A stretch of 64,000 nucleotides of DNA, taken from contig OY282458.1 of the NCBI GenBank assembly GCA_958296245.1, positions 620,001 through 684,000 on the forward strand, given 5' to 3'. The translations under genes and the position numbers were made by a program. Shown one piece after another: positions 1-64,000 of this stretch. The notes under the pieces were generated by a model. It was not told the DNA's origin. It worked only from the letters and a program-made list of their open reading frames with translations, and searched no databases. Source of the DNA: an uncultured Dehalococcoidia bacterium (lineage in GTDB: Bacteria; Chloroflexota; Dehalococcoidia; Lucifugimonadales; G958296245). Position 1 is the stretch's first letter. Every line of letters begins with the position of its first letter.

Positions 1-1180
1 GCTCTGTTGCGGGTTCTTCGACAGGAGCCTGGGGCTGCTCTGCCGCGATCCGCTCTATTGCGGGTTCTTCGACAGGAGCCGGGGGCTGTTCTGCCGCGAT
101 CTGTTCGGCTGCGGCCCGCTCTGCCGCGGCCTGCTCTGCCGCAGCCTCCATCTCGACGTTGCTCTTTATATCGACGTCCCACCCTGTGAGCCGCGCCGCC
201 AGCCTGGCGTTCTGCCCCTCCTTACCGATAGCCAACGAGAGTTGCCGGTCGGGCACAACGGCCACGGCGGCTTGCGTGTTGGGGTTCAACTCGACCCGCA
301 TGACGCTGGATGGGCTGAGGGAGTTGGAGATGTAGGTGGCTGGGTCCTTGCTCCACTGCACGACGTCTATCTTCTCGCCGTGCAGCTCGTTTACGATGTT
401 TTGGATGCGGATGCCCCGCAATCCGACGCAAGAGCCGACCGCGTCCACGCCGTCTTGCTTTGCGTGGACGGCAACTTTGCTCCGCGACCCCGGCTCCCTA
501 GCGATTCCGACTATCTCGACGGCGCCGTTGTATATCTCCGGCACCTCCATTTCGAACAGGCGCCTGACCAAGTCTTTATCGGCCCGCGAGACGATGATCT
601 CGGGGCCCTTGCCGGCCTCGCGGACCGTCTTGAGGAGCACCTTGATCTTGGAGCCGACCCTGCAACGCTCGTAAGGGGCCTGCTCCGATGACGGTAGGAT
701 CGCCTCCGCCCTGCCAAGCTCGACTACGATCTGCTTGGGCTCCATCCGCTGGACGGTAACGGTAAAGACCTCCCCTTCCTTGTCCGCGAACTCACGTAAC
801 ACAAGCTCGCGCTCGGCCTCGCGCAGGCGTTGGATGACGACCTGCTTGGCTGTCTGTGCGGCTATACGGCCCGCACTATGAGGCAAAGACCCGGTTGGCA
901 CCACGTCGCCCAGCTTGGCGTCTGCCCGTATCCTCCTAGCATCGGCTAGGCTGATCTGGATGTCCGGGTCCTCAATCTCCTCCGCTACTGTCCTGACGGT
1001 GAAGACGCTGACGCCGCCCGTGTTGGGGTCGAGCGTGACCGAGATGTCCTGGCCCGCCGCCACGCTGTCCCTCTTGTAGGCGGAGATTAGCGCAGCCTCG
1101 ATCGCCGACAGCACAATCTCTCTAGGAAGGTTGCGCTCGGCAGCCAACTGCGTTAAAGCGATTATGAAATCGCTTTTCAT
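1..1180 (-). CDS. nusA: Transcription termination/antitermination factor NusA (3' end off window)
   Basis: The open frame starts at the ATG at 1180 and runs leftward off the window, so about 393 codons are visible. NusA binds RNA polymerase and nascent RNA and controls pausing, termination and antitermination. The N-terminus ([20 protein letters not shown]) and the stretch [13 protein letters not shown] are typical of the NusA N-terminal domain. S1 and KH domains follow, ending in [13 protein letters not shown], the usual end of KH2. After that comes an Ala/Glu/Pro-rich tail in which a 17-residue unit (IAAEQPxAPVEEPA type, 51 bp) repeats at least twice within 1-110. A purine-rich ribosome-binding site lies about 10 nt upstream. 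rimP, usually the upstream neighbour, is absent here; upstream are a hairpin and an R1 repeat. The recognition is firm; the C-terminal extent is unknown. Confidence 0.93.
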
Positions 1181-1206
1181 CTGGACAACCACCCCCTCTT
1201 CAACAA

Positions 1207-1231
1207 AGAAAGTGGGGGATCCCCACTTTCT
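1207..1231 (-). promoter_or_regulatory. Perfect 11-bp stem-loop in the nusA leader
   Basis: AGAAAGTGGGG (1207-1217) and CCCCACTTTCT (1221-1231) are perfect inverted repeats separated by GAT. The structure lies 27 nt upstream of the nusA start codon, so it would sit in the nusA mRNA leader. There is no U-tract after it in the nusA direction. It may be an attenuator or an autoregulatory site, but this is inference. Confidence 0.45.
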
Positions 1232-1309
1232 CAAGAGCCGACCGATAGTCCCGAAGTCACCGCTAGTATAGCACCGCCAAGCGGCGGGTACAACTCTTGT
1301 ACCCTGAGA

Positions 1310-1546
1310 AACTGTTCAGGCCCTGTGAGACCCGAAGGGGAAAGTCCAGAGAGGTTCTCCCCTCCGGCAGGGGGTCTGGGGATTGATTTGGGTGAGGGGG
1401 TTGTGCAGTATCAGGTTCTCCCCTCCGGCAGGGGGTCTGGGGGCTGTGCCCCCAGTTACAAAGGGGCGGGCGGGTGGGGATCCAAAGATGTCTGCTTTAT
1501 CGGGGCTGCGCCAGGCGAAAAGGACCTCACGAAGTCTGAACAGTTA
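1310..1546. repeat. R1 dispersed repeat, full-length copy with internal duplication
   Basis: The ends are imperfect inverted repeats: AACTGTTCAG at 1310 and CTGAACAGTTA ending at 1546. Inside is a strong hairpin, CTGGGGGC-TGT-GCCCCCAG (1437-1455). A block containing TTCTCCCCTCCGGCAGGGGG occurs twice, at about 1350-1382 and 1413-1444, so this copy is longer than the one at 6396-6570. It fills most of the 445-bp gap between nusA and the next gene. It has no coding potential for a transposase and resembles a MITE. Confidence 0.75.
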
Positions 1547-1625
1547 CGTTACCGTCAACACGTTGCATTAGGGTTACAACCCGGATAATCTATAGTCAGC
1601 GGTTCGTGACGAGTTGGAGGGAACT

Positions 1626-1907
1626 ATGCCCAAGTTTGAGGTCGTACCGACATCTGAAGTGCCTAGGCCGAAACCCGCCGGTAGGCAGGTGACTGTGCAC
1701 ACCGAATACATAGACTATCTTGGCCAGATAGGGCGCTCTAAGGCGGGGAAGTTGACGCCTTCCGTAGGGGAGACTTCCCAAGCCTTGCGGAGGCGGCTAG
1801 GAGCGGCAGCCAAGCACGTCGGCAAGGAGATAGTCGTCAAGCGTAACGGCAAAGACGTATACTTCTGGGCCAAGTCGGGCCAGCGCCGGAAGGCGAATGG
1901 GAGCTAG
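1626..1907 (+). CDS. Small basic protein of unknown function
   Basis: The product is 93 residues starting at the ATG at 1626, which has GGAGG five bases upstream (1616-1620). An in-frame TTG at 1614 overlaps that ribosome-binding site and is rejected. The protein is rich in Lys/Arg, with a Lys/Pro-rich N-terminus and a C-terminal half (KHVGKEIVVKRNGKDVYFWA) that looks like a small beta-rich domain. No signal peptide or membrane segment is seen. It is a single gene between nusA (divergent) and xerC (convergent), immediately downstream of an R1 repeat. I do not recognise a family; a small nucleic-acid-binding role would fit the charge but is only a guess. Confidence 0.7.
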   Translation: MPKFEVVPTSEVPRPKPAGRQVTVHTEYIDYLGQIGRSKAGKLTPSVGETSQALRRRLGAAAKHVGKEIVVKRNGKDVYFWAKSGQRRKANGS

Positions 1908-2051
1908 CGGCCACTCCTTACCGTTCTCTCTGGGCCCAGCCCCGTCAGGTCGGCGCAGCGCATAGATTCGCAACCGTGACGCCGCCGCCTCGCAGCGGTC
2001 ACCGCTCAGGCGGTAATGCCTCCGGGATGGGCGCTGGTGTCAGCGGCGCTT

Positions 2052-8729: not shown

Positions 8730-9818
8730 TCAGTCCCCGTGATAGATCGCTAGGAGCATCCGCTCCACGTGCCGCGGTAACGACGAGTCGTACTCGGCCC
8801 AGCTCCGGTACTTCTCCAGCTCCAACGTCTGCGGCAGGGTGTCGAACAACCCGTAGGCGGCGAATACAGAGCCGCCGGCCTGCTCGATCGCCTCGTCCAC
8901 CGCCGCCTTGACCGCGTCGTACAGGTCGTTGTAGTACTCGACGTTCTCATGAAGGTCCACCGGGTCGGTCCCCGGCGAATGGGCGTTGATGGCGTGCTCG
9001 ATGTCCCAACCGCTGATGGTGTTGAGGATGCGCCGCGTGCCGGTGAAGTTCTTGTCGTCAACCCAGTTCTTGTGGGTGAGCGCGCGCGGCTCGTACATGT
9101 CCGCAGTGACGATGATCCGTTCTGCCGGCATGTAGATGACGGTCGTGGCTTCGCCGTCGCCGGGGCCGAGGTGGTGCAGTTCGACGACCTTATCGCCTAC
9201 GCGAACCTCCATGAAGTCGTCGAACGTCTCATCCACCGTCGGGACGTCCTCAAACGGGCTCAGGGCGAAAGCGAACTGGCAGTTCCATTGACATATGATA
9301 GTCGCGTCTTCGAATACGCCGGTGCCTCCCACGTGGTCGTAATGCTCGTGGGTCAGGGCGATAGTCGTGACCGGGGAGTCAGTCAGCTTGGCGATCTCTT
9401 CCTTCAGGGACTGCGCCCTGAGCGGGTTGGAGGTGTCGGTGATCAGCACCTCGCCGTCGGAGATCACTACCAGGCTGCTGGTGAAGAACCCGAAGTAGTG
9501 ATAGACGCCGTCTGCGAGCATGGTCATGGTGGGCGGCGGGATCTGGAACGCGGCTCCGCCGTCCGCCGGCTCTTCCGGCTCCGCCGTGGGCGCGGGTGCG
9601 GTCGTCGCCGTGGGTGCGGGCGCCGTTGTTGCCGTGGGTGCGGGCGCGGTCGTCGCCGTGGGCGCGGGCGCGGTTGTGGGCGCGGGCGCAGTTGTCGCCG
9701 TGGGTGCGGGCGCCGTTGTCGGCGTGGGCGCGGGGTCATCGGACCTGCAGGCCGCCGCCAGCAGCGCAAGTATCGCAGCGCAGCATATTGCCAGCGCAGG
9801 CTTCAGATTCTCGCTCAT
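8730..9818 (-). CDS. Metallo-beta-lactamase-fold lipoprotein (tandem copy 1)
   Basis: The product is 362 residues. A hydrophobic N-terminus ending in a lipobox (LAAAC, Cys24) indicates a lipoprotein signal. A low-complexity linker of repeated APTATT-type units follows (about residues 30-80), and then a metallo-beta-lactamase-fold hydrolase domain. The metal motif HEHYDH is present, with further candidate ligands in VTADMY and NAHSP. The usual third-motif His is not obvious in LGPGDGEAT. It is a near-duplicate of the next gene: the stop codons lie 1,129 bp apart and the hydrolase domains are almost identical in DNA. The substrate is unknown. Confidence 0.88.
   Translation of the reverse strand: MSENLKPALAICCAAILALLAAACRSDDPAPTPTTAPAPTATTAPAPTTAPAPTATTAPAPTATTAPAPTATTAPAPTAEPEEPADGGAAFQIPPPTMTMLADGVYHYFGFFTSSLVVISDGEVLITDTSNPLRAQSLKEEIAKLTDSPVTTIALTHEHYDHVGGTGVFEDATIICQWNCQFAFALSPFEDVPTVDETFDDFMEVRVGDKVVELHHLGPGDGEATTVIYMPAERIIVTADMYEPRALTHKNWVDDKNFTGTRRILNTISGWDIEHAINAHSPGTDPVDLHENVEYYNDLYDAVKAAVDEAIEQAGGSVFAAYGLFDTLPQTLELEKYRSWAEYDSSLPRHVERMLLAIYHGD
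9585..9735. repeat. Minisatellite coding the Pro/Thr/Ala linker of MBL copy 1
   Basis: Short G/C-rich units of the type GTGGGCGCGGGCGCGGTTGT follow one another with small variation. On the minus strand they code (AP)TATTAPAPT. The block is absent from the sister gene at 9859-10791, so it expanded or was lost after duplication. Confidence 0.75.
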
Positions 9819-9858
9819 TCCATTACCCTCCTCGGGCGCTCGATTCGCAAGTCCACCT

Positions 9859-10791
9859 TCAGTCCCCGTGATAGATCGCTAGGAGCATCCGCTCCACGTG
9901 CCGCGGTAACGACGAGTCGTACTCGCCCCAGCTCCGGTACTTCTCCAGCTCCAACGTCTGCGGCAGGGTGTCGAACAACCCGTAGGCGGCGAATATAGAG
10001 CCGCCGGCCTGCGACATCGCCTCGTCCACCGCCGCCTTGACCGCGTCGTACAGGTCGTTGTAGTACTCGACGTTCTCATGAAGGTCCATAGGGTCGGTCC
10101 CCGGCGAATGGGCGTTGATGGCGTGCTCGATATCCCAACCGCTGATGGTGTTGAGGATGCGCCGCGTGCCGGTGAAGTTCTTGTCGTCAACCCAGTTCTT
10201 ATGGGTGAGCGCGCGCGGCTCGTACATGTCCGCAGTGACGATGATCTGTTCTGCCGGCATGTAGATGACGGTCGTGGCGTCGCCGTCGCCTGGGCCGAGG
10301 TAGTGCAGTTCGACGACCTTATCGCCTACGCGAACCTCCATGAAGTCGTCGAACGTCTCATCCACCGTCGGGACGTCTCCCAGCGAGCTCAGGTCGAACA
10401 CAGGTTGGCAGTTCCGGTGGCAGACGACGGTCGCGTCTTCGAATACGCCGGTGCCGCCCACGTGGTCGTAATGCTCGTGGGTCAGGACTATAGTCGTGAC
10501 CGGGGAGTCAGTCAGCTTGGCGATCTCTTCCTTCAGGGACTGCGCCCTGAGCGGGTTGGAGGTGTCGGTGATCAGTACCTCGCCGCCGGAGATCACTACC
10601 AGGCTGCTGGTGAAGAACCCGAAGTAGTGATAGACGCCGTCTGCGAGCATGGTCACGGTGGGCGGCGGGATCTGTTGCGAGGCTGCAGGCGCAGGGGGCG
10701 ACGGGGGCTGTTTGGGACTATAGGCCCCTAGCGACGTCGAAAGCACCGCGACGAAGCACACTAGCAGCGCCACCTTCAATTTTCCGTTCAT
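9859..10791 (-). CDS. Metallo-beta-lactamase-fold exported protein (tandem copy 2)
   Basis: This 310-residue paralogue of the preceding gene has an N-terminal hydrophobic signal (LKVALLVCFVAVLSTSLGA) without a clear lipobox. A short Pro-rich linker leads to the same hydrolase domain, with HEHYDH and the shared C-terminus (SSLPRHVERMLLAIYHGD). It probably sits outside the membrane. Most differences from copy 1 lie in the signal and linker region and in about 20 residues after the metal motif. The 5' copy in transcription order is this one, and both may be co-transcribed (40-bp gap). Confidence 0.86.
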   Translation of the reverse strand: MNGKLKVALLVCFVAVLSTSLGAYSPKQPPSPPAPAASQQIPPPTVTMLADGVYHYFGFFTSSLVVISGGEVLITDTSNPLRAQSLKEEIAKLTDSPVTTIVLTHEHYDHVGGTGVFEDATVVCHRNCQPVFDLSSLGDVPTVDETFDDFMEVRVGDKVVELHYLGPGDGDATTVIYMPAEQIIVTADMYEPRALTHKNWVDDKNFTGTRRILNTISGWDIEHAINAHSPGTDPMDLHENVEYYNDLYDAVKAAVDEAMSQAGGSIFAAYGLFDTLPQTLELEKYRSWGEYDSSLPRHVERMLLAIYHGD

Positions 10792-10889
10792 TCCGTTGCC
10801 TCCATAACGTCAATCGGACATCGCCTCATCCACTGCCATTATTCCAGCTTTGATGCAGTATAGCAACGGCCCGACGCGAGAAATGATGA

Positions 10890-11005
10890 CTGTTCTTTTC
10901 GGCTGGCGTAGTCCCGATAAAGCAGATGTTTTGATCCCCGCCCTGAGCCTGTCGGAGGGGTGTACCTCTGATATAATTCAATCCCTTCCTGGGCAGGAAG
11001 GAATG
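10890..11005. repeat. Truncated R1 fused to R2 repeat
   Basis: 10890-10945 matches the CGGGGCTGCGCCAG..GATAAAGCAGA half of R1. It runs directly into R2, which has CTCTGATATAATTC followed by a hairpin CCTTCCTG-GG-CAGGAAGG (10984-11001). The R2 part lies just upstream of the aldo/keto reductase, so its TATAAT box at about 10971 could act as its promoter. That is inference. Confidence 0.65.
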
Positions 11006-11036
11006 ATCTTCAGTTGCGCCGCAGAACGGAGCCAAC

Positions 11037-12002
11037 ATGCAGTACGTGAACCTCGGTAGGGCAGGGGTCAAGGTTTCCCGGATCGCTCTCGGCATGGGCC
11101 TGCGCGAGATAGGGGACGTCGCCGAGGCCGCCAAGTTCGTCGAGTACGCCATCGACCGCGGCGTGAACTTCATAGACTGCGCGAACAGGTACGGCCTGCT
11201 GGACAACCGCGTGGACGCTCGCGGCACCTCGGAGCAGGCGCTGTCCAAGGTGCTCAAGACCCGGCGCGACGACGTGGTACTCACGACCAAGGTCAGGGGG
11301 CAAATGGGCGACGGCCCCAACGACGCGGGCGCCTCCAGGCAACACATCCTCCGCGAGGTGGACCGCTCCCTGGCCCGCCTGGGTACGGACCACGTGGACA
11401 TCTACTTGCTGCACGCCTGGGACGGCGAGACGCCGCTGGACGAGACGCTGCGGGCCCTGGACGACATAGTTACTCAGGGCAAGGCTAGATACGTAGGCTG
11501 CTGCAATTATCAGGCTTGGCAGGTATGCAAGGCGCTGTGGCGCGCCGACCGAATTGGGGCGGACCCGTTCGTGTGCGTCCAGAACGTCTACAACCTTCTG
11601 TACCGCTCTCTCGAGTCCGAGATGCTTCCGTTCTTACGCGACGCCGGGCTGGGGTTGATGGTCTATAGCCCGCTGGCGGTGGGCCGCCTCAGCGGTCACT
11701 ACAGGCCGGGGGAAAGCCCGCCCAGCGGCTCGCTCTGGAGCCACAAGCCCCGCGCAGAGTATGACGAGGGGTTCCCGTTGCAGGCCGCGTCCGTGCTCGA
11801 CGCGCTGGGCGAGGTCGCTGCAAACCGGGGCGTTTCAGCGGCTCAGGCCGCCTTGAATTGGGTGCTGTCTCACGGTGAAGTGACCACCGCGATCACCGGC
11901 AGCGACTCCATCGAGCGACTCGACGACACCCTGGCGGCGTTGGAGTGGGAGCTCGACGACGAGGAGCGGGCCAAGCTCGACGAAGTTTCCAAAGTGTTCT
12001 AG
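11037..12002 (+). CDS. Aldo/keto reductase
   Basis: This 321-residue NADPH-dependent aldo/keto reductase has a TIM-barrel fold. The N-terminal MQYVNLGRAGVKVSRIALG is typical. The catalytic residues are visible: D47 and Y52 (FIDCANRYG), K85 (LTTKV) and H126 (YLLHAWD). The C-terminal SAAQAALNWVLSHGEVTTAITGSDS matches the cofactor-binding end of the family. The ATG at 11037 follows an R2 repeat containing a TATAAT box. A small gene follows 54 bp downstream. The substrate is unknown. Confidence 0.92.
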   Translation: MQYVNLGRAGVKVSRIALGMGLREIGDVAEAAKFVEYAIDRGVNFIDCANRYGLLDNRVDARGTSEQALSKVLKTRRDDVVLTTKVRGQMGDGPNDAGASRQHILREVDRSLARLGTDHVDIYLLHAWDGETPLDETLRALDDIVTQGKARYVGCCNYQAWQVCKALWRADRIGADPFVCVQNVYNLLYRSLESEMLPFLRDAGLGLMVYSPLAVGRLSGHYRPGESPPSGSLWSHKPRAEYDEGFPLQAASVLDALGEVAANRGVSAAQAALNWVLSHGEVTTAITGSDSIERLDDTLAALEWELDDEERAKLDEVSKVF

Positions 12003-56205: not shown

Positions 56206-57894
56206 ATGGCTCCTGACGCACCCGCCCCCTCCAAAGACTTCGTTCGCGACGTCGTCGCCGGCGACGTGCGCGCCAACAAGTGGGGGGGCCGCGTCGTGAC
56301 CCGGTTCCCGCCGGAGCCCAACGGCTATCTCCACGTTGGACACGCCAAGTCAGTCTGCCTGAACTTCGGCATCGCCCGTGAATTCGGCGGCGTCTGCAAC
56401 CTCAGATTCGACGACACGAACCCCGCCAAGGAGGACGTGGAGTACGTCCAATCGATCATTGACGACGTCCGCTGGCTGGGGTTCGATTGGGACGGGCGCA
56501 TCCGCTACGCCTCGGACTACTTCGAGCAGTTGTACGCCTTCGCGGTCAAGCTGATCGAGGATGGCCTCGCATACGTGGACGACCTGAGCAGAGAGGAGAT
56601 CAGGCAGTACAGGGGAACCCTTACCGAGCCGGGCATAGAGAGCCCTTACCGGGACCGCGCGGTTGAGGAGAACCTTCAGCTCTTCGAAGGCATGCGCGCC
56701 GGCGAGTTCGAAGACGGGTCCCGCGTCCTGCGAGCCAAGATCGACATGTCCTCCGGCAACCTGAACATGCGGGACCCCGTCATGTACAGGATCCTGAAGA
56801 CCGTGCGCCATCACCGGACCGGCGAACGGTGGTGCATCTACCCGACCTACGACTGGGCCCACGGCCAGAGCGACTCCATCGAGGGGGTCACCCATTCGAT
56901 CTGCACGATGGAGTACGAGGACCATCGCCCGCTCTACGACTGGTTCTTGGAGAAGCTGGGCATCTTCCGTTCCGAGCAGACGGAGTTCGCCCGCCTTAAC
57001 CTGAGCCATACGGTCCTGAGCAAGCGCAAGCTGGCAACGCTGGTCGAGGGCGGCTACGTCAGCGGCTGGGACGACCCAAGGATGCCGACCTTGTCCGGGA
57101 TGCGCCGGCGCGGGTACACGCCGGAGTCCATCCGGGCCTTCTGTGACAGGATAGGCGTCGCCAAGCGCGCCAACGTCATGGACGCCGCGTTGCTGGAACA
57201 CCTGCTGCGTGAGGATCTGAATAGGCGGGCGCCCCGCGTCATGGGCGTGCTGCGGCCTCTGAAGGTAGTCATAGAGAATTACCCCCAAGGAAAGGTGGAG
57301 TATCTCGACGCGGTGAATAACCCCGAGGACCCCCAAGCCGGCTCCCGGGAGGTGCCCTTTTCGCGGGAGATATACGTCGAGCGCGACGACTTCCGCGAGG
57401 AAGCGCCCAGGAAGTTCCACAGGCTGGCCCCGGGCCGGGAGGTGCGTCTCCGGTACGGTTATCTCATCACCTGCCGGGACGTCGTCAAGGACGATTCGGG
57501 GGAGGTCGTCGAGCTCCGCTGCACCTACGACCCCCAAACGCGGGGCGGCCGAGCACCGGACGGACGGAGGGTCAGGGGCACCGTACATTGGGTATCCGCC
57601 CCGCACGCTCTACAGGTACAGGTGAGGCTGTTCGACCGCCTGTTCACCACGGAAAGGCCCGACGAGGAAGACAACTTCATAGACAACCTGAACCCGGGTT
57701 CGCTCGAGGTGTTGACGGACTGCCGGGTCGAACCGTCCCTGGCCGGGGCGGCGCCCGGAAGCCGCTACCAGTTCGAACGGCTGGGGTACTTCTGCGCCGA
57801 TTCCAAGCTCTCGGTCCCCGGCAACCCCGTGTTCAACAGGACGGCGCCGTTGCGGGACACGTGGGCCAAGATCGAAGGCTCCGCAAGGAGGTGA
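56206..57894 (+). CDS. glnS: Glutaminyl-tRNA synthetase
   Basis: This 562-residue class I synthetase charges tRNA-Gln directly. The HIGH motif is HVGH (43-46) in [21 protein letters not shown], and the KMSKS motif is VLSKRKL. WGHTDSIE-type recognition appears as [30 protein letters not shown], typical of GlnRS rather than GluRS. The C-terminal anticodon-binding beta-barrels are complete ([21 protein letters not shown]). Presence of GlnRS implies the GatCAB route is not the only source of Gln-tRNA. Confidence 0.96.
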
Positions 57895-57902
57895 ACACAG
57901 CC

Positions 57903-59240
57903 TTGACTACCGCCAGCCAACTCATGCGGATCGAGAACGACGCCTATACGGAAGCGCGGCCCAGATCGAAACGGCTCCAGGCCGAGGCCGAACGGTATCT
58001 GCCGGGCGGCAGCTCCCGGGCCACCCAGTACTTCGGCCCCTTCCCCTTCTTCATGGACCGGGCCGAGGGGCACTACGTCTACGACGTCGACGGACACCGA
58101 TACCTTGACTTCATGCTCAACGCCACGACGTTCATCGCGGGCCACGCCAACCCGGACGTCGTAAGGGCCGTCCAAGAGCAGAGCGAAAGGGGCCTCAGCT
58201 TCGGCGCCCCCGCTTCCGCCCAGATACGGCTTGCAAAGGAGCTCTGCGAGAGGGTCCCCTCGCTGGACCGGGTGCGCTTCACCAACTCCGGCACCGAAGG
58301 GACGCTGAACGCGATCAGGCTCGCGCGGGCCTATACCGGACGCCATAAGTTCGCCAAGTTCGAGGGCGGATACCACGGCAACCACGAGTACGTCTCCGTC
58401 AGCGTCAGCCCGCCCATGGACCTGCTCGGCCCCGGCGACCCTCCCGCCGTTCCGGAGTGGCCGGGGCAACCCCCCAGCGTCGCCGAAGACGTGGTGGTGC
58501 TGCCGTACAACGACCTGGAGGGCGCCGAGCGGATACTCCGCAGGCGCGGGGACGAGTTGGCATGCGTGATCATGGAACCCGTGTGCTCCAGCTTCGGTTA
58601 CGTCCCGGGTACGAGGGCCTTCCTAACGGGCGTCCGCGAATTGACGCGCGAGCTCGGCATCGTCTTGGTGTTCGACGAGGTCCAGAGCTTCCGCATATCC
58701 CGGGGCGGCGCGCAGGAGTACCTGGGGGTCGTCCCCGACATAACTACCTTTGGCAAGATAGTGGGCGGCGGCCTTCCCGTCGGCGCGTGGGGCGGCCGCG
58801 CCGACCTCATGGCGCTGTACGACCCGGCGACGGGGCCGGTCGTCAGCCACGCGGGCACGTTCAACGCCAACCCCATGACGATGGTAGCCGGCGAGGCCAC
58901 GCTCCGGCAGCTTACGCCCGAGGCATACGACCGGATGAACACCTTGGGCGGGCAGCTGCGCGAGAAGCTGAGAGCCGTCTTCGGAGAGATCGACGTGGAC
59001 GCGCAGGTCACCGGCATAGGCTCGCTCTTCGCCATCCACTTCGCGCACGAAGAGATACGCGACTACCGCTCCATGATGCGCGGAGACCAGGAGATGAAGG
59101 ATCTGCTGTTCGTCGGCCTGCTCAATGAGGGCGTAATGCTGACCAGCAAGTGCGCCGGCGCCCTTTGCACCCTGACCTCCGAGGCCGACGTAGACGCCCT
59201 GGTCGACGCGGTTCGCCGGGTGGGCCAGCGCATCCGGTAG
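57903..59240 (+). CDS. Class III aminotransferase, glutamate-1-semialdehyde aminomutase-like
   Basis: The product is 445 residues from a TTG at 57903, 12 bases after AGGAGG; a GTG at 57891 that overlaps the glnS stop and an ATG at 57924 are alternatives. PLP-enzyme blocks are FTNSGTEGTLNAIRLARAYTG, FEGGYHGNHE, LVFDEVQSFR and the lysine in TFGKIVGGGLPVGAWGG. The order matches HemL-type enzymes, but no haem-synthesis genes are beside it, and many paralogues have other substrates. Confidence 0.88.
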   Translation: MTTASQLMRIENDAYTEARPRSKRLQAEAERYLPGGSSRATQYFGPFPFFMDRAEGHYVYDVDGHRYLDFMLNATTFIAGHANPDVVRAVQEQSERGLSFGAPASAQIRLAKELCERVPSLDRVRFTNSGTEGTLNAIRLARAYTGRHKFAKFEGGYHGNHEYVSVSVSPPMDLLGPGDPPAVPEWPGQPPSVAEDVVVLPYNDLEGAERILRRRGDELACVIMEPVCSSFGYVPGTRAFLTGVRELTRELGIVLVFDEVQSFRISRGGAQEYLGVVPDITTFGKIVGGGLPVGAWGGRADLMALYDPATGPVVSHAGTFNANPMTMVAGEATLRQLTPEAYDRMNTLGGQLREKLRAVFGEIDVDAQVTGIGSLFAIHFAHEEIRDYRSMMRGDQEMKDLLFVGLLNEGVMLTSKCAGALCTLTSEADVDALVDAVRRVGQRIR

Positions 59241-59380: not shown

Positions 59381-60724
59381 ATGCAGCCATCCGAGGTGAG
59401 ACCGATGGTAGAAGAGCCTGCCCCCCGGCTGCTGATAACCAAGGTATGGGCCAAGAATTTCCGCAGCATTGAGTTTGCGGAGTTAGAGTTGGGATCGCTG
59501 ACGGTGCTGGTGGGACCCAACGCTTCGGGTAAGAGCAATCTGATGGACGTCTTGGGGTTCCTCGGCGATGCTGTGCGCCTCGGCCTCGAAACGGCCATAA
59601 CCCGGCGAGGCGGGATCGACTCCATTGGCCGCAAATCGCCAACCGGAGAGGTGTTGGGCCCGGAAGTTGGCTGCCAGTATGAGTTCCCAGAGGGAACGTT
59701 TAATTACGCTGTTGCGTTGATGAGGAAGGACGAAGGCGAGTATCGGGTCAAGCAAGAGTCCGCTAGGCTGGAATTCACGGATCCGGACGTTCGCCCACTG
59801 GAGGTTGCTCTTACCAACGGACGCCTTACCAAGCCCAACCTCAAGAGGATATTAGAACAAGCCGATTCCTCACTGACCAAGAATGACGGAGGTGCGCTTG
59901 CCGGCGTAGTCGAATGGCTCATCGCGGAGTCGGATCGCCAAAACATTCAACTGATGTCTGCGGAGCCTCAGACAATCACTTCGTTATTGGCGTTATTGAC
60001 GTTATTGCTGATGAGATCGAGTGCGGGAGAGGAAGACAGCTATCTCCTCTTACTCCACTCACTTGACCGCGCAGGGAATGACCTGGGCAGAATCGGACTG
60101 TACCATATCTTCCCCAACTCCTTACGTGACCCTCAGAAAGTGGCGGATAGCCATCCTTTGGCGACGGGCGGAGAAAACTTAGCGTCTACTCTGAGAGACA
60201 TGATCCAGAAGAAGAGCCGCTTCCTCCCAGATTTGAAAAGCGCCCTGACCTTTGCGGTCCCAGGGGTCCGGGACATTCGAGTCAGCCACGCCGGCAGCTA
60301 CTACGTAGTGGAGCTCAACCATGAGAGGAACGGTGGGAATGAGAGGGGCTCTTGGTTTGACCTGTCCTACGAATCCGATGGCTCCATCCGCCTGCTGGCT
60401 CTGTTGACAGCGCTGCTCCAAGACCCTGCTCCGTCGCTGATCGGCCTGGAAGAACCCGAGTTGGCTATACATCCTGGCGCTATGGCCGTGTTGTCGGACA
60501 CCATGATGGAAGCGGCGCTGCGTGGACAAGTGTTGGTTTCTACCCACAGCCCCGACTTAATTGATCGGTTGCCCATTGAGAGCATACGGGCGGTAACCGC
60601 CGAAGGCGGCTCAACTAAGGTAGGCAAAATCACCGAACATCAACTGACGTCGGTGAGAGAAGGACTGTTTTCAGCCGGGGAGCTGCACAGTATGGAAGGC
60701 CTCCAACCGGCGGGCGCCGAGTAG
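59381..60724 (+). CDS. AAA-family (AAA_21/OLD-like) ATPase
   Basis: The product is 447 residues (an ATG at 59405 is an alternative start). KNFRSIEFAELELGSLTVLVGPNASGKSNLMDVLGF holds Walker A (45-52). The C-terminal half has SLIGLEEPELAIHPGAMAVLS as the signature/Walker B region and VLVSTHSPDLIDRLP as the H-loop. The SMC/RecF-like layout matches ATPases of the OLD, PARIS and retron-associated types. It is 7 bp from the DUF4276-like gene. Base composition is visibly lower in GC than its neighbours, which suggests transfer. Confidence 0.85.
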   Translation: MQPSEVRPMVEEPAPRLLITKVWAKNFRSIEFAELELGSLTVLVGPNASGKSNLMDVLGFLGDAVRLGLETAITRRGGIDSIGRKSPTGEVLGPEVGCQYEFPEGTFNYAVALMRKDEGEYRVKQESARLEFTDPDVRPLEVALTNGRLTKPNLKRILEQADSSLTKNDGGALAGVVEWLIAESDRQNIQLMSAEPQTITSLLALLTLLLMRSSAGEEDSYLLLLHSLDRAGNDLGRIGLYHIFPNSLRDPQKVADSHPLATGGENLASTLRDMIQKKSRFLPDLKSALTFAVPGVRDIRVSHAGSYYVVELNHERNGGNERGSWFDLSYESDGSIRLLALLTALLQDPAPSLIGLEEPELAIHPGAMAVLSDTMMEAALRGQVLVSTHSPDLIDRLPIESIRAVTAEGGSTKVGKITEHQLTSVREGLFSAGELHSMEGLQPAGAE

Positions 60725-60731
60725 GCGCGAT

Positions 60732-61349
60732 ATGCGCACCATCGTGCCGGTGGTCGAAGGCGACGGGGATGCCGCCGCCTTGCCAGAGTTGTTGGTCAGG
60801 ATTCTACGTGAGATGTACGGTCGGCACGATGTCTTCGTGGCTCAAGGAAGAACCAAAGTAGTCAAAGCCAACGGCAGGGCGAATCTGGAAAAAAAGCTGG
60901 ACAGATTCCTGAGACACGCACAGAACAAACCAGGGTGCGAGGCAATCCTGATCCTTGTGGATGCTGATGGCGACTGCCCAGTAGAATTTGCTAAGCAACT
61001 TTCCCAACGCTGTGATCGAGTCGGCACAAAATCCCCGGTACGGATAGTATGCGCCCGTCGGTCATACGAGTCCTGGTTCCTCGCCAGCTTGAGCGCCATC
61101 AGAGGCAGGCATGGGATACCTGATACTGCTGCCTTATCCGGTGATCCTGAGGCCGTCCCCAACCCAAAACGATGGCTCAGCGACCAAATGCCAAGCGGCC
61201 AGGCTTATAAAGAGACAACCCACCAGGCGCCTCTTAGCAGAGCTATCGATCTGGACTTAGCCTACCGTAACTCTCGTTCCTTCCGCCGGTTATGCCACGC
61301 ACTGGAACAGCTATTGGCCACCATAGACGCCCCTAGCCCCCCATCCTGA
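60732..61349 (+). CDS. DUF4276-family TOPRIM-like protein
   Basis: The product is 205 residues. VPVVEGDGDAAALPELLVRIL has the TOPRIM-like glutamate E9, and AILILVDADGDCP gives the D77-x-D79-x-D81 acidic motif. Later family blocks are ARRSYESWFLASL and PNPKRWL, and SRSFRRLCHAL. DUF4276 genes are commonly found next to AAA_21 ATPases, as here (7-bp gap). By analogy with OLD/Gabija/PARIS it may be a nuclease switched by the ATPase during phage infection; this is inference. Confidence 0.82.
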   Translation: MRTIVPVVEGDGDAAALPELLVRILREMYGRHDVFVAQGRTKVVKANGRANLEKKLDRFLRHAQNKPGCEAILILVDADGDCPVEFAKQLSQRCDRVGTKSPVRIVCARRSYESWFLASLSAIRGRHGIPDTAALSGDPEAVPNPKRWLSDQMPSGQAYKETTHQAPLSRAIDLDLAYRNSRSFRRLCHALEQLLATIDAPSPPS

Positions 61350-61399: not shown

Positions 61400-64000
61400 C
61401 TATGGCGCTGCCGCAGGCCTTCGCGCTCTGAGCGCAACCAACCCCGCCAGAATCAGCAGTCCTCCGGCAAGGCTCAACGCCAGCAACAGCCCGCCCGGAA
61501 CAGAGGGGCCGCCTACCGCGGGTAGCGCCGCCGATGGTCTCTGACGACGCTGGTCGCCGAATTCCTGCCAGCTTGCCCTGCCGTCGCCCTTGAAGTCGAC
61601 CTTCAGCGCCGGGTACTCGTGCGCTGTGCCGAAGTCCCAGGGGTCGTCTGGGCCCGTCATCTCATCGTGGTCCCCGTCGGCGTTATCTATGTCGATGTTC
61701 CAAGCGAAGTAGATGCCGGTATAGCCGGCGGGCGACTGAAGCTCGGCCGTAGTCTTGCCTTCGACGCCGGGAATACCCTCGCCCTCGGTGCTTGCCGCAT
61801 GGCCGGAAGCCTCGACGTCCCAGTAGCTGGCGCCGATCCTGGCTATGACGCGGCCATCATCAGTGGTTAGCTTTCCCAGTTGGAAACACGTCCCCGTGGG
61901 TGTTACCAACGTACCGGGTGTTAGCAACGTACCGCCCGCGTAGACGGCAGCGCCAATCCGGCTCCCGACCAGCCCACCGGCGCACTCATCCCCCTTCACG
62001 CTGCCTGTGGCATAGCTCGCCCTGATCGTGCCGAAGTCATGGTTGTTGCCGACCAGTCCGCCCACCCCTTCTTCCCCGGACACGCTGCCCGTGGCGTAGC
62101 TCGCTCTAATCGCGCCATTGTTCTCCCCGACCAGCCCGCCGGCTATTCTACCCTGCGACACGCTGGCTGCGGCATAGCTGGTGACCACGACGCCGGCGCC
62201 GGCATTCAGCCCAACCAGTCCTCCGACTTTATCACCCCCCGACACGTTGCCCGTCGCATAGCTGCCGATGATCGTGCCCCCGTTGCGCCCGACCAGCGCG
62301 CCCACTTCCAGCCCGCCCGACACGTTGGCGCGCGCCAGCCCTACGCGGCGGATGACGCCCGAGAAGCCTACCAAGCTGAACAGCCCGACGTGAAAACTGC
62401 TATGTCTGACAAACAAGCCGGCGATAGTGTGACCATTGCCCTCGAACGTACCCTGGAATGTCCCGGGGGATGACCTGGCGTACCACCCAATCGACAGCCA
62501 GCCTTCACCGCCCTCCCCTCTGCTCCAGCCCCGGTCGACCGAGCCTGATGCGTAGCTGCCGGGGTCGTCGAAGTCCAGGTCTCTTGCCAGCTCGTAGCCC
62601 ACGCAGCCCTCACCGGGGCAGCCCGTACCCACCGCCTCCGAGAACGCCTTGGCATAATCGGCTGCGTGTCTGGGGTGGTCCGCTTCGCCGTCGCCGTCTA
62701 GGTCGTAGCGAATGGCGTCCAGATGCTCCAAGCTGGAGACCTCGATGAGGCCGTCATCATCCGCATCGTAATCGCGCGAGACCGAGGGAGTGGGGGTTGG
62801 CGTCGCCGGAGCGGGCTCACCGTCACCCCCTCCGGCCTCTCCCCTGGGCTGATCGCCGAACTCCTCCCAGCTTGCGATGCCGTCGCCGTCGAAGTCCACC
62901 TGCAGGGCCGGATACTGATCGGCCGAGCCGAAGCTCCAGGGGTCGTCCGCGCCGGTTGTCTCATCATCGTCGCCGTCGGCGTTGTCTATGTCCATATTCC
63001 ATGCGCTGTAGATGTCGGTATAGGTGGTCGGCGCCTGCAACTCGACGGTGGTCTTGCCCTTGGCGCCGGAGTTGAACCCGAATGCCACGCCATACGATTG
63101 CCCGGAGGTTCCGATATCCCAGTAGCTGGCGGCGATCCCGTTCGGGTCATCGTTCACTCCAACCAGCCCGCCTGAGGCCTCCGACACCCTGCCCGTCGCG
63201 TAGCTGGCCCTGATCGTACTTCCGTGAGCGTTGTAGCCGGCCAGTCCGCCGGTCTCCAGTCCGCCGGCCTGGGGATCCCCCGACACGTTGCCCGTGGCGT
63301 AGCTGGATATGATTGTGCCTCCGATGAAGTTGGCCCCGGTTAGGCCTCCGACTTTTCCAATCCCAGACACGCCGCCTGTGGCGTAGCTCGCCGCGATCAT
63401 GTCATAGTTTTCGCCGACCAAGCCGCCAACCCTGCTACTCCCCGACACGTTACCCGTGGCGTAGCTGGCGCTGATATTGCCTTGGGTCTTGTTGTTCCCG
63501 ACCAGCCCGCCGACGCCGCTGCCGATATTCCCCGATACGTTACCCGTGGCGTAGCTGGCGCTGATCGGGCCGCTGTTAGACCCTACCAACCCTCCCGCCA
63601 AGTCATCCCCCGACACGTTGCCCGTGGCATGGCTGCCAATAATCGCGCCCCCGTTGTCCCCAGCCAGGCCGCCGACACCCACGTCCCCCTGCACGCTTCC
63701 CGTAGCATAGCTATCGCTGATCGTGCCCCCCGTGCCCCCCGACCCTTCGTTGCTCCCGACCAAGCCGCCGACCCACCAGTTCCCCCGCACGCTTCCCGTA
63801 GCATAGCTGCCGCTGATCGCGCCATCGTTTGCGCCCGCCAACGCGCCGACCACCCCCCACCCGCTGACTCGGGCCTCGACCAGCCCGACCCGACGGATAG
63901 CGCCTGCACTGCCCACACGCCCGAACAGGCCCACGTCGTCGTCGCGGGCGATGAACAGGTTGGCGATGGTGTGGCCGTTGCCGTCGAAGGTGGAGTTGAA
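61400..64000 (-). CDS. Large GLUG-repeat surface protein with C-terminal sorting-like signal (5' end off window)
   Basis: At least 866 codons are visible; the frame stays open to the right edge (...NSTFDGNGHTIANLFIARDDDVGLFG), so the start is missing. About 15-20 GLUG-type repeats (VGGLVGxN..I..SYATGxVSG) form two blocks, separated by a Pro/Thr linker and an Asp-rich segment (YDADDDGLIEVSSLEHLDAI). Two copies of a DADNADGD-type end domain (WNMDIDNADGDDDE; WNIDIDNADGDHDE) follow each block. The C-terminus has LPAVGG, a hydrophobic span and RARR, like a sortase signal. It is probably an adhesin or surface protein. Confidence 0.87.
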   Translation of the reverse strand, partial: FNSTFDGNGHTIANLFIARDDDVGLFGRVGSAGAIRRVGLVEARVSGWGVVGALAGANDGAISGSYATGSVRGNWWVGGLVGSNEGSGGTGGTISDSYATGSVQGDVGVGGLAGDNGGAIIGSHATGNVSGDDLAGGLVGSNSGPISASYATGNVSGNIGSGVGGLVGNNKTQGNISASYATGNVSGSSRVGGLVGENYDMIAASYATGGVSGIGKVGGLTGANFIGGTIISSYATGNVSGDPQAGGLETGGLAGYNAHGSTIRASYATGRVSEASGGLVGVNDDPNGIAASYWDIGTSGQSYGVAFGFNSGAKGKTTVELQAPTTYTDIYSAWNMDIDNADGDDDETTGADDPWSFGSADQYPALQVDFDGDGIASWEEFGDQPRGEAGGGDGEPAPATPTPTPSVSRDYDADDDGLIEVSSLEHLDAIRYDLDGDGEADHPRHAADYAKAFSEAVGTGCPGEGCVGYELARDLDFDDPGSYASGSVDRGWSRGEGGEGWLSIGWYARSSPGTFQGTFEGNGHTIAGLFVRHSSFHVGLFSLVGFSGVIRRVGLARANVSGGLEVGALVGRNGGTIIGSYATGNVSGGDKVGGLVGLNAGAGVVVTSYAAASVSQGRIAGGLVGENNGAIRASYATGSVSGEEGVGGLVGNNHDFGTIRASYATGSVKGDECAGGLVGSRIGAAVYAGGTLLTPGTLVTPTGTCFQLGKLTTDDGRVIARIGASYWDVEASGHAASTEGEGIPGVEGKTTAELQSPAGYTGIYFAWNIDIDNADGDHDEMTGPDDPWDFGTAHEYPALKVDFKGDGRASWQEFGDQRRQRPSAALPAVGGPSVPGGLLLALSLAGGLLILAGLVALRARRPAAAP

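Follow-up and report, generated by a model that had tools for sequence, protein, structure and literature searches.

An HEC-01-type pair of an ABC ATPase and a predicted DUF4276 Toprim nuclease in an uncultured Dehalococcoidia bacterium, a probable defence module

In the 64,000-nucleotide stretch of an uncultured Dehalococcoidia genome analyzed here (the window), two adjoining genes on the plus strand encode an SMC/Rad50-like ABC ATPase and a small DUF4276 protein that is predicted to be a Toprim nuclease. The pair is a fresh member of the catalogued candidate defence system HEC-01, not a new kind of system, and we put the probability that it is a defence module at about 0.8. The best PADLOC-DB match of the ATPase is HEC-01A (PDLC04178, E-value 5.5e-81) and that of the DUF4276 protein is HEC-01B (PDLC04196, 9e-53), the latter over the full length of the profile (residues 1-196 against positions 1-193 of 197); both matches were judged by E-value and not by PADLOC's own thresholds. 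With the HEC-01B-type gene 7 bp from the HEC-01A-type gene and on the same strand, the gene set of HEC-01 is complete. A sequence-only reading of this DNA had suggested that the pair might be a less studied type, outside the recognized ones, a view that the existing PADLOC-DB entry overturns. HEC-01 stands for Hma-embedded candidate 01 (Payne et al., bioRxiv 2024, 10.1101/2024.01.29.577857, as cited in PMC12255303) and has been reported in other genomes by other authors (PMC12724379). The candidates HEC-04 and HEC-06 are reported to be antiviral (PMC12111858, PMC12988326); a literature search for an experiment on HEC-01 found none. The window copy differs from its namesake in that it lies inside no other defence system and stands alone among housekeeping genes. 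PADLOC itself labels the HEC-01 models inconsistently as A and B, as PDLC04143 and PDLC04144 comprise one DUF4276-type model named HEC-01A and one ATPase model named HEC-01B.

The ATPase gene was called at positions 59381-60724 and the DUF4276 gene at 60732-61349, both intact, with 7 bp between the TAG stop codon of the former (60722-60724) and the ATG of the latter (60732), just as the sequence-only reading had described them. The host genome is a single 2.69-Mb contig. Both neighbors lie outside the module: upstream, a co-directional aminotransferase-like housekeeping gene (57984-59240, plus strand), preceded by a glutaminyl-tRNA synthetase-like gene (56206-57894), is separated from the ATPase gene by a gap of 140 bp, and downstream a convergent gene on the minus strand (61400-63934) encodes a GLUG-motif repeat protein (Pfam Glug, 3.2e-30). 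The latter gene runs beyond the end of the window (positions 1-1935, minus strand, of the adjoining locus L054), and its large product ends in a hydrophobic C-terminal helix of the kind seen in surface-anchored proteins. A few kilobases further on lie groES/groEL-like genes; for these genes as for the tRNA synthetase and the aminotransferase, the names were read off the translations and do not derive from a family scan. GC content is 0.53-0.59 over the pair versus 0.63-0.69 on either flank, which bears out the earlier remark on low GC. Third-position GC (GC3) is low as well, with 0.66 for the ATPase gene and 0.60 for the DUF4276 gene against a window mean of 0.79 (standard deviation 0.07), and the DUF4276 gene has the lowest value of all 49 genes predicted in the window. 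The suggestion that the two genes form a transcript unit of their own is plausible in view of the upstream gap and the convergent downstream gene, but a search at the pair found no sigma-70-like promoter and no terminator signal above chance.

The ATPase has 447 residues as listed. Its true start is, however, probably the ATG at 59405, which would give a protein of 439 residues, because a probable Shine-Dalgarno sequence, GAGGTGAG (59393-59400, plus strand), is well spaced four bases upstream of this codon and because relatives start there. The protein matches Pfam AAA_21 (4.9e-32, 112.6 bits, cutoff 27) and AAA_15 (66 bits) and carries a Walker A motif (GPNASGKSN, residues 45-53), a signature-like motif (SDGSIR, 332-337), a Walker B motif (LIGLEEPE, 353-360) and an H-loop (STHS, 387-390), all nearly invariant across 17 relatives. 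The structure model (pLDDT 83.7) finds SMC/Rad50 heads and PtuA as its structural matches, with Z-scores of about 19-22, and a profile search of the PDB returned OLD (6p74, 2e-19), PtuA (9e-16), AriA (9e-8) and also GajA. We conclude that the protein is an SMC/Rad50-like ABC ATPase.

The second protein, of 205 residues, matches Pfam DUF4276 (5.7e-18, 66.3 bits, cutoff 30.2), a family name that a full-text literature search found in no paper. Its AlphaFold2 model, built from a 23-sequence alignment, has a mean pLDDT of 95.6 and a pTM of 0.90 and runs through strand 2-8, helix 11-28, strand 69-77, helix 83-97 and strand 103-108 to a set of closing helices. In this model E9 follows the first strand and D77-x-D79 ends a later one, which is the Toprim pattern; a Toprim topology is thus predicted with confidence. 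Structural alignment with VIA-align placed four OLD Toprim domains at ranks 1-4 (6nk8, Z 9.9; 6njw, 9.3; 6njv, 9.1; 6njx, 9.0; 168-172 residues aligned), although these matches exceed unrelated entries by only about 1 Z unit. AriB and RNase M5 do not appear in the VIA-align list, an absence that proves nothing. Foldseek against the PDB gave nothing significant for the model (best E-value 0.02), a PDB search with the sequence gave only chance-like S100P matches and the profile search none, and no sequence match to any Toprim protein in the PDB was found.

The metal ligands of BpOLD include E400, E404, D455, D457 and E508, and K562 also belongs to the site (PMC6755086). VIA-align sets residue 1 of the DUF4276 model against residue 392 of the OLD chain, so E9 falls on E400 and D13 falls on E404. 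D77 and D79 match D455 and D457, and E113 matches E508, as judged by spacing and conservation; K146 may be the equivalent of K562. D77 and E113 do not vary among the 23 sequences. Position 79 is an aspartate in 22 of them, an acidic residue occupies position 13 in 22, K146 is a lysine in 21 and E9 is a glutamate in 19; three sequences, all of a divergent subgroup, have a serine at position 9. Taken with the model, these residues (E9, D13, D77, D79, E113 and K146) likely form a candidate two-metal site as in OLD. The first reading had singled out E9, D77 and D79, and the model, the OLD alignment and the conservation all point to the same positions.

An ABC ATPase joined with a Toprim nuclease is an arrangement shared by several characterized systems, and membership in each of these was considered. 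The pair resembles PARIS in that the two proteins are encoded by separate adjoining genes, as AriA and AriB are, and the ATPase matches both AAA_21 and the PADLOC AriA profile (2.2e-29). The PARIS detection rule calls for an AAA_15 or AAA_21 ATPase above a Pfam score of 32 or 27, respectively, and for a DUF4435 protein, AriB (Rousset et al., 2022, PMC9122126). The ATPase scores, 66 bits for AAA_15 and 112.6 for AAA_21, lie well above these values, but the Pfam scan of the nuclease gave DUF4276 and a weak DUF3226 match (E-value up to 1) and no DUF4435; PARIS was rejected for this reason, and AriA itself is only a remote PDB relative of the window ATPase. Like the OLD proteins of classes 1-3 (P2 Old, GajA and the retron-Eco8 effector), the pair combines an ABC ATPase with a Toprim nuclease, and the predicted two-metal set of E, E/D at +4, DxD and a later E corresponds to that of BpOLD in the model, the VIA alignment and the conservation. 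In contrast to these fused proteins, ATPase and Toprim protein are two separate ORFs here, every matched domain of the 447-residue protein is an ATPase domain, and neither a helicase nor a reverse transcriptase gene is adjacent, which argues against a fused OLD protein of classes 1-3. Gabija was set aside since no UvrD-like helicase GajB adjoins the pair, whose flanks are the aminotransferase-like gene and the GLUG protein gene. The sequence-only reading was hence right to keep the pair apart from OLD, Gabija and PARIS. Mad3-Mad4 of the MADS system gives matches as well (PADLOC mad3, 1.1e-23, for the ATPase; a weak mad4 match of 16 bits for the DUF4276 protein), but the NCBIfam MAD3 score of 100.1 bits is far from the cutoff of 420 and other MADS genes were not seen nearby, so MADS was rejected. 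Among the solved structures of defence ATPases, the PtuA proteins of Septu and retrons come closest in fold (Z about 19-20; profile 9e-16), but the partner of the window ATPase is a Toprim protein and not the nuclease PtuB, which is of the HNH type.

The two genes travel together. In samples of the order and the phylum, an ATPase gene lies directly upstream of, and on the same strand as, 29 of 33 DUF4276 relatives, and the remaining four are gene fragments or sit at contig ends. Trees of the ATPase and the DUF4276 protein from 16 pairs agree in their supported clades (G000 with G203; G010 with G022; G188 with G199, G198 and G314). The distribution is patchy, with a match in 19 of 250 genomes of the order and in 18 of 400 of the phylum sample. 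The nearest relative is 67% and 69% identical for the two proteins. A scan of genome contigs with the DUF4276 protein added a single relative, the one with 67% identity; it comes from an uncultured Dehalococcoidia metagenome-assembled genome (MAG) and is the closest to the pair among named records. The comparison with the nearest relative yields a dN/dS of about 0.18 for each gene, a rough value as synonymous sites are near saturation, and both genes are under purifying selection. The low GC3 recurs throughout: in 16 of 16 loci, which are partly non-independent, the pair lies below the median of its neighbors (mean difference 0.18). A profile scan found no relatives in IMG/VR viral contigs; one unannotated record of a phage collection and three Streptomyces plasmids carry relatives, and thus there is little direct sign of traffic by phages or plasmids near this clade. 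In one locus (L045, G182:C12, 10385-10996) mobility is hinted at by a resolvase-type serine recombinase gene, the end of which lies some 60 bp downstream of a related pair. Broken copies were also seen: about 3.2 kb interrupt an ATPase gene in L080 (G573:C242, 2060-7178), an in-frame stop breaks the DUF4276 gene of L048 (G097, 9412-10005), and in L030/L038 (G024:C11) two pieces of a DUF4276 gene are separated by about 1.8 kb. Such copies are consistent with frequent gain and loss of the pair.

The window copy and most of its close relatives sit among housekeeping or metabolic genes and outside defence islands. A consistent housekeeping context had been named beforehand as a finding that would speak against defence; the window copy does have such neighbors, but they are not common to the relatives. 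Flanking genes vary from locus to locus and the aminotransferase gene is not adjacent to the pair in relatives. The exception is a single genus (g78), in which three genomes (L050-L052) hold a related pair at the same locus; there its GC3 is 0.54-0.55 versus 0.80-0.84 for the neighbors, as would befit an old insertion that is either un-ameliorated or kept low in GC by selection. In all 11 relatives with the closest aminotransferase, both the tRNA synthetase gene and the pair are absent within 1.5 kb on either side, so that no syntenic empty site can be read.

Clear defence genes surround the pair in four loci, L076 and L083-L085, the last three of which belong to one clade. In L076 the genes upstream of the pair encode the type I proteins HsdR and HsdM; in L083-L085, read gene by gene in L084, the order is DUF499, DUF3780, DUF1156 methylase, the pair and PLD helicase. 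This tally is an uncontrolled count over 21 relatives with 116 neighbor proteins, and we claim no enrichment from it. The genome of the window itself harbors a second, divergent HEC-01-type pair (L053, G000:C1:2116500-2136000; 9627-11672, minus strand), with PADLOC matches to HEC-01A (5e-131) and HEC-01B (1e-75). The two ATPases of this genome are 30% identical over 183 residues and the two DUF4276 proteins give no BLAST match to each other. The second pair is located inside a type I restriction-modification operon with HsdM, HsdS, HsdR and a Schlafen/AlbA_2 protein whose C-terminal domain (PF13749) is RecG-like. Genes for an N6_N4 methylase and for a restriction enzyme of the EcoO109I type lie nearby. 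That this pair and some relatives are built into restriction operons speaks for a defensive function of the family. Together with the family matches, the structure, the gene pairing and the patchy spread, it supports the original proposal of an ATPase and Toprim logic in the service of defence.

As to how such a module may act, we lean towards a guarded nuclease, an abortive module similar to PARIS. In PARIS, an assembly of the ATPase AriA holds AriB until a phage protein triggers its release, whereupon AriB cuts tRNA (PMC12409363), and it is by this analogy that we favor an ATPase sensor holding a Toprim nuclease. The pair would then be a horizontally mobile antiviral module of HEC-01 type. 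Its ATPase would bind ATP, form head-engaged dimers or higher rings, serve as sensor and clamp and keep the small nuclease inactive, until a phage-encoded trigger or a DNA state alters the ATPase and the nuclease is released or activated. The latter would cleave nucleic acid through the candidate site E9, D13, D77, D79, E113 and K146, either a tRNA, which is what PARIS cuts, or DNA, which OLD and Gabija attack. The infected cell would be arrested or die, and phage growth would stop with it. For the pair itself we infer this whole chain, from complex formation and sensing through nuclease activity and its target to the abortive outcome.

Direct cutting of DNA in the manner of OLD, Gabija or retron-Eco8, in which the ATPase would load the DUF4276 nuclease on DNA once it has recognized ends or structures of phage DNA, is possible, though we would not expect it. 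The combination of an OLD-like Toprim domain and a Rad50-like ATPase leaves room for it: the Toprim model comes nearest to DNA-cutting OLD domains, the ATPase head resembles DNA-binding Rad50/SMC heads and some relatives reside in operons that restrict DNA. The fold, however, does not give the substrate, as RNase M5 and the tRNA-cutting AriB have the same Toprim site (PMC12409363, PMC6755086), and a separate small nuclease gene is closer to the PARIS layout than to OLD. A more speculative and rather doubtful idea is that HEC-01 is a separate two-gene "split OLD" branch, whose ATPase-guarded DUF4276 nuclease would have a target of its own (a tRNA, rRNA or DNA feature that AriB and GajA do not cut) and whose stand-alone chromosomal copies would be the original form, the embedded ones having been recruited into restriction operons.

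That the two genes serve as a toxin-antitoxin or plasmid-maintenance system, in which the ATPase would be the antitoxin to a toxic Toprim nuclease, seems improbable to us. Such a system would account for a nuclease and an ATPase that are adjacent and co-inherited and for the relatives on three Streptomyces plasmids; moreover, AriA is labelled as antitoxin in PDB entries and the Pfam name of AAA_21 mentions AbiEii/type IV TA. The embedding of relatives in restriction operons nevertheless points to phage defence, and the idea overlaps with that of a guarded nuclease since PARIS also acts as a guarded toxin. Least probable, at long odds, is a housekeeping role in chromosome biology or DNA repair. 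For this role there is a precedent in archaeal Cran1, an OLD-type ATPase-nuclease with a non-defence function in the cell cycle (PMC12796447), and both the neighbors of the window copy and the one genus that keeps the pair at a single locus in three species (L050-L052) would agree with it. We disfavor it because the spread is patchy, with the pair present in under a tenth of the genomes of the order and phylum samples, and because the context changes from relative to relative; the GC3 unlike that of the neighbors in all 16 loci and the relatives embedded in restriction operons likewise speak for the defence module.

For the Pfam family DUF4276, whose function is unknown, the analysis provides a concrete candidate map of the active site. 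It also sets the candidate system HEC-01 beside OLD and PARIS, and the target of the enzyme thereby becomes directly testable. In addition, it brings to light one genome with two divergent copies of the pair, one free-standing and the other inside a restriction operon.
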